A stretch of 36,629 bases of DNA from positions 1 to 36,629 of the forward strand of contig JABEVD010000167.1 in NCBI GenBank assembly GCA_013044025.1, given 5' to 3'. The notes under the pieces are model-generated. The model was not told where the DNA came from and did not search any database. It saw nothing but the letters and a program-made list of their open reading frames with translations. Of this stretch, positions 7,662 to 23,246 are shown piece after piece. The first letter of the stretch is position 1, and the number at the start of each line of letters is the position of its first letter. The position numbers were made by a program, and so were the translations under genes. This DNA is from Burkholderiales bacterium. Its GTDB lineage: Bacteria > Pseudomonadota > Gammaproteobacteria > Burkholderiales > JABEVD01.

Positions 7662-7929
7662 ACATATAGTTACCGTTTATCAACATGGGAAACGCAGCAT
7701 GTTCGCTTTCCCGGCCAAAAGATTTGTGATTATTACTCATTGAAACTTCCATGGCAACTCGAAGGCGGGTCTTCGTGATTTCTTCGCTTTTTGTGTTCCC
7801 AGATTATTTTTTTCAATTTGTAAAAAGAATAATACTGATAGAGTTGCATGGTTTTCTGTATTGAAAATATTCAATAATAAAAACAATATTTTATATTTGA
7901 TTTTTAACTTGATGAAGCTGCGTTCAGCC

Positions 7930-7984
7930 TGTGGACAAATTGTTGTGAATTTAAAAAATTTTTTTCAGGAACCATTTATTCACA
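7930..7984. promoter_or_regulatory. Inverted pair of DnaA-box-like 9-mers, copy 1
   Basis: TGTGGACAA (7930-7938; reverse complement TTGTCCACA, one mismatch) and TTATTCACA (7976-7984; fits TTWTNCACA). Confidence 0.65.
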
Positions 7985-8214
7985 GTTTATTGTTGCGATT
8001 TTCCGTGTTGATGTCGAATTTCAGGATTTCATGAATTTTGGTATTCCTTCACACCCTTTCGGCGAGTCATGCCGATTGACACTCACTCTATCTTTTCAAA
8101 TTTGTAAAAATAATAGAACTGATAGAGGCGGCTGTTTTTCTGTATTGAAAAATATAGATTTTAAAAACAGATTGTTATCTTGATATTTGGGGCTTGATGA
8201 AGCGGGGCTTTGCC

Positions 8215-8269
8215 TGTGGATAAATTGTTGCAAATTTTGAATTATCCCTTTCGGAACCATTTATCCACA
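8215..8269. promoter_or_regulatory. Inverted pair of perfect DnaA boxes, copy 2
   Basis: TGTGGATAA (8215-8223; reverse complement TTATCCACA) and TTATCCACA (8261-8269). Confidence 0.8.
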
Positions 8270-8280
8270 GTATTTTTCGT

Positions 8281-9537: not shown

Positions 9538-11655
9538 TCAACTCTCCAATATCGACGGGATGCAGATGTCGATGCTCGCACCATTGGGTGAAAGATTTGC
9601 GATCTGAATCTTGCCATGATGCTCTTCCACGATCTTTTTGACGATCGCAAGTCCGAGCCCGGTGCCTTTCGGCTTGGTTGTAACGTAAGGTTCGAAGGCC
9701 CGGTTCAGGATCTGATCCGGAAAACCGGGGCCGTTGTCCGAGATGGTAAGGCGCACCTGCCTGTCCGTTGAAGTCGTCTTCACCAGGATCACCGGTTTTT
9801 CCGTTTCCGTCAAAGCATCCTGCGAATTTTTCAGGAGATTGTGAATCACCTGCCTCAACTGGGTTTCATCCCCCCTTATTTTTGGCAGACCATCCTGAAG
9901 CTGGGTGTTGACTCCGATCGATTCGTACAGGGTCAGCACTTCACGAACCAGTGCATTGAGATCGGTTTCCCTGAAATTGGGTTCTGACGATTTTGCATAC
10001 TTGCTGAATGCGTCGACCATGTTCTTGAGGGCTGCGACCTGATTCACGATCGTCTGGGTGGATCTCGTCAGCATCCTGTTTTCCTGCTCACCGAGCTTGT
10101 CGGCAAGCTTGTGTTGAATCCTCTCTGCCGATAGCTGTATCGGGGTGAGCGGGTTCTTGATTTCATGGGCAAGCCTTCTCGCCACTTCTCCCCATGCAGC
10201 ATTTCTCTGTGCCTGAACGAGATGCGTGATGTCGTCGAATACCACAAGATATCCCTTTTCCGTACCTTCAGGAAGCTGAGATCCCCTTAACAGCAGGATC
10301 TGGTTTTTCCCTTTTCCCGTGATTTCGATCTGTTTTTCCCAATCCCTGTATGCGTACGTCCTGAAATTTTCCTCGATTTCGATGGCTACCGTTTCCAGGG
10401 AGGTTGCGATTTCCTTCCAGTTTCTGAGCGGGACGAGGATGAGTTTCGAAAGCTCCGAGTTGAGTATGTTGCAGGCTGCCGGGTTGGCTGATTTGAGATG
10501 AAAATCTTCATCGAATGAAAGCACGCCGGAAGACAGGTTGGAAAGTATGCTTTCCAGATAGGCTCTGGCGCTTTCCACCTGCGCATGGTTCTTCTGGATG
10601 GATTCCCTTGCTTCGGCAAGCTGGTGCGTCATGATGTTGAAAGATTGAGTCAGGATACCCAGTTCGTCCCTGCTTTTGACCGGATGGTACTGGCTGAAAT
10701 CGCCCTGCGCCACCGCTCTGGTTCCCTGTGCCAGGATCGCAAGCGGCGCGCTCAGCCTTTCACTGATGTAGAAGGAAACCGCGAGCGCACAGAGCAGCGC
10801 GAGAAGCAGCGAAAGCGTGAGAGTGAGTCCATACAATCTTTTCAGTCCGAGTCTGGAAAGGGTGAGTCCCTGATAATCCCTGTAGACATTCTGCACGGAT
10901 TCGGCATCCTGGGCGATCTGTTTTGGTACATGCTTGAGTACCTGAAGCACCCGGATGTCTTCGTTCAGCTTGAGAACATTCACCGGAGCGACCACCTGGA
11001 TGTAAAGGCCTTTTCCGGGAATCGATTCAATATTGCTGTATGTTTTCTGGATCCTGATCTGGTGAAGGATGGATGGTGATGGAAATCCCAGTACCATTGC
11101 GCTGTTTTCTGCACCTGAATAGGCGATGATCTTCCCATTTTGCCTGAACAGGGCCCCTTCCTGAGCGCCCGTCTGATCCAGCAAGTGTCCGAATCTTGCC
11201 AGAAGATCATCGTCCGGCACATCTATGAGGGAAAAGGCCATGGAATCGGTTCTTTTTTCCAGATCTTTCCGCATGTCATCGAGGGTGGTCCTTCCCAGGT
11301 TCAGCCCGCTTTCCAGCGCCTTGTCCACACGAACGTCGAACCAGGATTCGATGCTTTTCGAGAGAAACTGCACGGAAAGACTGTAAACCAGCACTCCTGG
11401 CAGGATCGACATCAGGGAGAAGAACATCAACAGCCTGAAGGTGAGCCTGGAACCGAATTTTTTCGATCTGATTTTATTGAACAGATCGTATATCTGGTAG
11501 AAAACGACTGCGGACAGGAGCAATACCACTGCTCCTCCAAGCCCAAGCAACAGCGTGAAATGCTTCGAGAAGGAAGCGGTATTCGCGCTCGCGAGGGAAA
11601 GCCGGTACAGCAGGACCCCGCCCATGAACGCGCAGATGGTGATGATGTATTTCAA
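9538..11655 (-). CDS. NtrY-like sensor histidine kinase (N-terminal TMs, HAMP, PAS-like, HisKA, HATPase)
   Basis: LAHEIKNPLTPIQLSAERIQHKL (H box), NLLKNSQDAL (N box), ISDNGPGFP and GTGLGLAIVKKI (G boxes). ORF extends to 11733, but a TTG at 11655 just past the upstream stop (11669) is a likelier start; start uncertain. Confidence 0.85.
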   Translation of the reverse strand: MKYIITICAFMGGVLLYRLSLASANTASFSKHFTLLLGLGGAVVLLLSAVVFYQIYDLFNKIRSKKFGSRLTFRLLMFFSLMSILPGVLVYSLSVQFLSKSIESWFDVRVDKALESGLNLGRTTLDDMRKDLEKRTDSMAFSLIDVPDDDLLARFGHLLDQTGAQEGALFRQNGKIIAYSGAENSAMVLGFPSPSILHQIRIQKTYSNIESIPGKGLYIQVVAPVNVLKLNEDIRVLQVLKHVPKQIAQDAESVQNVYRDYQGLTLSRLGLKRLYGLTLTLSLLLALLCALAVSFYISERLSAPLAILAQGTRAVAQGDFSQYHPVKSRDELGILTQSFNIMTHQLAEARESIQKNHAQVESARAYLESILSNLSSGVLSFDEDFHLKSANPAACNILNSELSKLILVPLRNWKEIATSLETVAIEIEENFRTYAYRDWEKQIEITGKGKNQILLLRGSQLPEGTEKGYLVVFDDITHLVQAQRNAAWGEVARRLAHEIKNPLTPIQLSAERIQHKLADKLGEQENRMLTRSTQTIVNQVAALKNMVDAFSKYAKSSEPNFRETDLNALVREVLTLYESIGVNTQLQDGLPKIRGDETQLRQVIHNLLKNSQDALTETEKPVILVKTTSTDRQVRLTISDNGPGFPDQILNRAFEPYVTTKPKGTGLGLAIVKKIVEEHHGKIQIANLSPNGASIDICIPSILES

Positions 11656-19731: not shown

Positions 19732-23233
<3,502 letters not shown>

Positions 23234-23246
23234 GATCTATACCTGG

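Follow-up and report, generated by a model that had tools for sequence, protein, structure and literature searches.

In Bacillus subtilis and other bacteria, the basal unwinding system consists of a DnaA-box, a spacer, and DnaA-trios (PMC8287927, PMC6669920). The oriC of Escherichia coli lies apart from dnaA and has an AT-rich unwinding element beside its DnaA boxes (PMC8287927). On chromosome 1 of the betaproteobacterium Cupriavidus metallidurans CH34, the GC-skew switch is next to three perfect DnaA boxes within 213 nt, ~90 kb from dnaA-dnaN-gyrB, and this site is the predicted origin (PMC2864759). In most of the betaproteobacterial families analyzed here, the canonical origin site is the gap between dnaA and dnaN.

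We analyzed a 36,629-nucleotide contig (the window) from a Burkholderiales bacterium and compared an element in its ntrX-tkt gap with these systems. The element resembles the dnaA-dnaN oriC of other families (G019, G022, G023, G031, G036, and others) in having opposed boxes 46-47 bp apart (35-58 bp in some), an AT-rich stretch, a DnaA-trio-like block ~100 bp from box 2, and a start just past the upstream stop codon. It differs in following ntrX rather than dnaA and in being twofold in the window species. Like the basal unwinding system, it has DnaA boxes beside an AT-rich trinucleotide-repeat region, but its trio-like block is ~100 bp from a strong box, and a close box (≤16 bp) is at best degenerate. 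As in E. coli, it is separated from dnaA and has an AT-rich candidate unwinding element by the boxes. The E. coli arrangement is a separate evolutionary event with a different box array. C. metallidurans, also a betaproteobacterium, likewise has an origin candidate away from dnaA; the accessible part of that report describes a different place and box arrangement and no tandem module.

We conclude that the ntrX-tkt gap very probably holds the chromosomal replication origin of this genus, lost from dnaA-dnaN, re-established after ntrX, and later tandemly duplicated in the window species. Origins away from dnaA are already known; to these, the location between ntrX and tkt, the move as a cassette, and the tandem twin add new variants. 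In the freely licensed literature, we found no report of the ntrX-tkt site, of dnaA-dnaN being emptied in return, or of a comparable tandem twin in nature.

Tandem modules between ntrX and tkt

The ntrX-tkt gap of the window species is 680 bp long and contains two ~190-bp modules (Table 1). The modules form a direct repeat (7805-7897 with 8089-8181 and 7908-7991 with 8193-8276, at an offset of 284-285 bp). A preliminary description of this DNA had proposed tandem modules of this size, and the repeat is real, ~75% identical and beyond chance in shuffled sequence. That description had also placed four DnaA boxes here with an outer spacing of 55 bp in both copies, all of which proved exact, and had assigned an AT-rich stretch to each module; among all 100-bp windows of the contig, these two stretches rank lowest in stability. 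Written as forward-strand letters, the boxes are TGTGGACAA (7930-7938), TTATTCACA (7976-7984), TGTGGATAA (8215-8223), and TTATCCACA (8261-8269). Read along the ntrX strand, the locus runs from ntrX through pair 2 and its AT-rich stretch (2), then pair 1 and its AT-rich stretch (1), to tkt.

Table 1. Positions of the candidate origin modules and related features in the window.
Feature	Position	Strand	Remarks
oriC module copy 2 (candidate), adjoining ntrX stop	8089..8276	-	75% identity to copy 1; top model match, score 48.1
oriC module copy 1 (candidate), tkt side	7805..7991	-	repeat of copy 2; second-best model match, score 44.3
DnaA box 1, copy 2	8261..8269	-	TGTGGATAA on ntrX strand, perfect; start ~12 nt past ntrX stop
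DnaA box 2, copy 2	8215..8223	-	TTATCCACA on ntrX strand, perfect; 46 bp from box 1, start to start
DnaA box 1, copy 1	7976..7984	-	TGTGAATAA on ntrX strand, 1 mismatch
DnaA box 2, copy 1	7930..7938	-	TTGTCCACA on ntrX strand, 1 mismatch; 46-bp spacing as in copy 2
AT-rich candidate DNA unwinding element, copy 2	8104..8203	.	second least stable 100-bp window of contig
AT-rich candidate unwinding element, copy 1	7803..7902	.	least stable 100-bp window of contig
DnaA-trio-like block, copy 2	8102..8128	-	CCTCTATCAGTTCTATTATTTTTACAA on ntrX strand; ~100 bp from box 2; beats shuffles, p=0.004
DnaA-trio-like block, copy 1	7818..7844	-	ACTCTATCAGTATTATTCTTTTTACAA on ntrX strand; beats shuffles, p=0.014
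dnaA-dnaN gap	23234..23246	.	13 bp; canonical betaproteobacterial oriC site, lost here
Single perfect DnaA box upstream of dnaA	24654..24662	.	kind conserved in relatives; not part of origin

The arrangement of the boxes was rare in shuffled sequence. When two opposed boxes within 80 bp of each other and with ≤1 mismatch each were counted as a pair, shuffling the 680-bp gap 2000 times with dinucleotides preserved gave a pair in 2 cases and two pairs in none. In the whole 2.56-Mb assembly, the box-pair pattern matched the two modules only. Both copies have the trio-like block at the ~95-116 bp from box 2 that is typical of betaproteobacterial-type oriC, and that of copy 2 has the same position as in the dnaA-dnaN origins of other families.

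The opposed box pair was present after ntrX, with one module each, in all six congeners that have an assembled ntrX-tkt gap (a count that leaves out G002, with no ntrX match, and G005, whose contig ends inside ntrX). The preliminary description had named a search for the repeat in related genomes as a check, and the box pair is indeed kept in all six. The congener module consists of a TGTGnnTAA box, a YTRTCCACA box 46 bp away (47 bp in G004), an AT-rich stretch, and, in most cases, a CTTTATTAG-like block. The AT-rich stretch by the box pair had a stability rank of 1-3 in the six congener contigs (1 being least stable). The congener trio-like blocks were mostly at the expected position, none being individually significant against shuffles. 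Weak boxes 11 bp from box 2, sought across the set, were present in only part of it. A gapped percent identity between the AT-rich modules was discarded because shuffled controls scored similarly.

A model built from other families picked out the same modules. The three-block model (box 1, box 2, and trio-like block, with their spacings) was trained on 19 dnaA-dnaN gaps from families outside the genus only. When both strands of 590 kb of genus contigs were scanned, the top eight matches were exactly the eight ntrX-tkt modules, those of the window scoring 48.1 and 44.3 and those of the six congeners 34.5-40.0. The next best match scored 24.1, and random AT-rich sequence reached up to 24-31 with the same model. 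A scan with the boxes only gave an identical top eight.

Reciprocal change at two sites and the position of the skew minimum

The dnaA-dnaN gap was 13-23 bp in all seven genus members compared. Of 23 other families, 19 had a gap of 176-238 bp, and most of these have boxes and then a trinucleotide-repeat block before dnaN. The usual betaproteobacterial position of oriC, between dnaA and dnaN, is thus not that of the element in the window, where 13 bp separate the two genes. The same pair and order were found in the dnaA-dnaN gap of other families, with the boxes at a similar distance past the stop of the upstream gene. The opposed pair at 46-47 bp is common to the congeners, G036, G019, G022, and G021, and in G036 and G019 the two boxes are perfect and exactly 46 bp apart. 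The converse pattern was found at the new site. Among ~30 betaproteobacteria outside the genus in which ntrX and tkt are adjacent, the gap between them was 54-312 bp and none had the box pair; within the genus, it spanned 307-386 bp and held a single pair, except in the window species, where it spanned 680 bp and held two.

The minimum of cumulative GC skew was at the element, not at dnaA, in three of three long congener contigs. It was at 134,459 in G006 (214 kb; element at 134,796-134,850), at 59,627 in G007 (86 kb; element at 60,114-60,168), and at 9,644 in G003 (151 kb; element at 10,240-10,294), that is, ~0.3-0.65 kb from the element (about 340-600 bp when measured to the near edge of the box pair) and 17-33 kb from dnaA. 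The preliminary description had named GC skew as a check and had offered a true origin, a bipartite origin, or a DnaA-titration site as readings of the locus; these minima, together with conservation of the box pair, favor the true origin. The 36.6-kb contig of the window has a shallow skew with a minimum at 18.8 kb and is too short and flat to decide. Among families with a canonical gap, the minimum was within ~1 kb of a dnaA-dnaN gap holding DnaA boxes in G022, G023, and G031 and ~1 kb from the gap in G036; in two canonical-looking families (G037 and G024) the contig minima were elsewhere.

We also compared third-codon skew in matched genes from ntrX to dnaA, taken relative to topA/dprA on the other strand. 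The sign was reversed in seven of eight genus members, and 12 of 13 canonical families had a positive value (p=0.0016, with no correction for kinship); because the genus members are akin, these counts represent few independent events. The contrast in the window's own matched genes was about zero. Breakpoints corrected for gene strand, using codon-model gene calls, were diffuse; they favored the element over dnaA in G006 and G007 and did not favor it in G003, which has only 10 kb on one side.

The arrangement suggests how the element could work. We propose that, in an ancestor of the genus, a ~190-bp oriC was lost at dnaA-dnaN and established directly past the ntrX stop, ~16-31 kb away. If the element works like the basal unwinding system (PMC8287927, PMC6669920), DnaA would bind the opposed box pair with its 46-bp spacing, and an ATP-DnaA oligomer seeded from the boxes would be guided onto the trio-like strand of the adjacent AT-rich stretch. 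The duplex would open there, and helicase would be loaded in both directions. A later tandem duplication of the module would account for the four boxes and the two candidate unwinding elements of the window species. The main copy is probably copy 2, whose boxes are perfect, with copy 1 perhaps serving as an accessory or a spare; the twin modules could form one composite origin, or a working copy plus a spare.

Alternative readings of the locus

Two other readings of the box pairs would place the origin elsewhere. The preliminary description had suggested a DnaA-titration site, and a datA- or DARS-like titration or reactivation site controlling an origin elsewhere, for example at dnaA-rpmH, would account for boxes without a neighboring dnaA at a locus near dnaA, as a control site might be. 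However, such sites are distinct from an origin that lies elsewhere, and in three congeners the skew minimum falls at the element, the genus has lost the canonical dnaA-dnaN site, and the element has the full architecture of the origins of other families. Pure titration in particular is disfavored because the genus genomes yielded no other origin-like site or cluster of boxes, and we regard a control site as very unlikely. The second reading, which puts the origin in the dnaA-rpmH spacer and gives the ntrX-tkt pairs a secondary role, we consider still more improbable. Genes run leftward from dnaA and rightward from rpmH, and the spacer does hold one perfect DnaA box, the only one there, as first described. 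However, a single perfect box upstream of dnaA was found in most betaproteobacteria examined, including families with the skew minimum and boxes at dnaA-dnaN, and because of this recurrence it looks like a dnaA-promoter box, probably autoregulatory, rather than an origin cluster. The skew minima of G006, G007, and G003 are 17-33 kb from that spacer, at the element. The preliminary description also needs correcting on one point, in that the canonical site of this group is the dnaA-dnaN gap and not dnaA-rpmH.

A further possibility qualifies the origin reading without replacing it: copy 2 alone could be the origin and copy 1 a decaying, functionless duplicate. This would fit the congeners, which have a single module adjoining ntrX, and the one mismatch in each box of copy 1. 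However, the 46-bp spacing is exact in copy 1, which also retains a trio-like block (p=0.014) and the least stable window of the contig, and the box variants of copy 1 are those of the sole module of G008. We consider a functionless copy 1 quite plausible but lean slightly against it.

Displaced candidates in other lineages and genomic setting

Displaced origin candidates were also found in other families with short dnaA-dnaN gaps (G016, G012, and G035), which behave as predicted. In G016 (gap 36 bp), the best model match was at 256,982, between two genes identified by sequence as flgB and lgt, and the skew minimum was at 257,981; the candidate, G016:C22:256949-257150, is 64 kb from dnaA. In G012 (gap 106 bp), a cluster of six boxes, four of them perfect, was located together with a trio-like block at G012:C1:1695210-1695430, 414 kb from dnaA. 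The skew was examined afterwards, and the minimum in the stretch read was at 1,700,308, 5 kb from the box cluster, with none at dnaA. In G035 (gap 41 bp), two tandem origin-like modules lie at G035:C9:74899-75320, ~15 kb from dnaA, as two TGTGGATAA...TGTCCACA pairs at a distance of 246 bp, with TTATCCACAG and a possible trio-like block after each pair; the contig skew minimum was at 79.9 kb in a noisy profile. In G040:C4 (gap 88 bp), GC skew was near-monotonic through dnaA over 210 kb with no minimum there. The origin of G040 is probably away from dnaA; we did not locate it.

The dnaA-dnaN gap is the usual place of oriC and is not a functional requirement, as the candidates of G016 and G012 sit elsewhere at a skew minimum. 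A simple rule held in the Burkholderiales cases tested: where the gap is well below ~170 bp, the origin is to be expected elsewhere. The genus provides a case of origin relocation at the level of sequence, with an emptied old site, an occupied new site, and ~30 relatives in which the new site is still empty, and it suggests that replication origins in bacteria can move about as small cassettes. With rather more doubt than belief, we extend this to the order: the Burkholderiales origin might be a compact ~200-bp cassette that has moved repeatedly (in the genus, G016, G012, and G035), sometimes with tandem duplication (independently in the window species and G035) into composite origins in which both unwinding elements function. 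Relocation would reverse the direction of replication through dnaA-dnaN-gyrB...ntrX, and therefore the effects of head-on orientation on genes could be compared between relatives. The tandem twin lets one ask what a doubled origin does to the control of initiation.

The gene order around the element is fba-pyk-pgk-gap-tkt, the element, ntrX-ntrY-rsmB-fmt-def, dprA and topA on the other strand, gyrB-dnaN-dnaA, the rpmH side, and mnmE-mnmG-rsmG-parA-parB (pgk and rpmH named from position alone). The window assembly is betaproteobacterial, in 242 contigs, and every genus sequence is a fragmented assembly. The genes from ntrX to dnaA are mostly directed towards the proposed origin, which counts against it. 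A parS-like site, GGTTTCACGTGAAACA, lies where gyrB and dnaN adjoin in the window (22110-22125) and has counterparts in G005, G006, and G007; these three genomes have a second parS-like site near mnmG. That parS is still near gyrB and mnmG also counts against the origin reading. As an origin marker, parS did not discriminate; it appears that parS stayed near dnaA although the origin moved. Upstream of tkt, a block at 7705-7757 is kept across the genus (GATTTGAGATTATTACTCAT in congeners) and contains a GAG-ATTATTA-CTC palindrome; the block may serve the tkt-gap-pgk-pyk-fba cluster as a LysR/CbbR-type operator.
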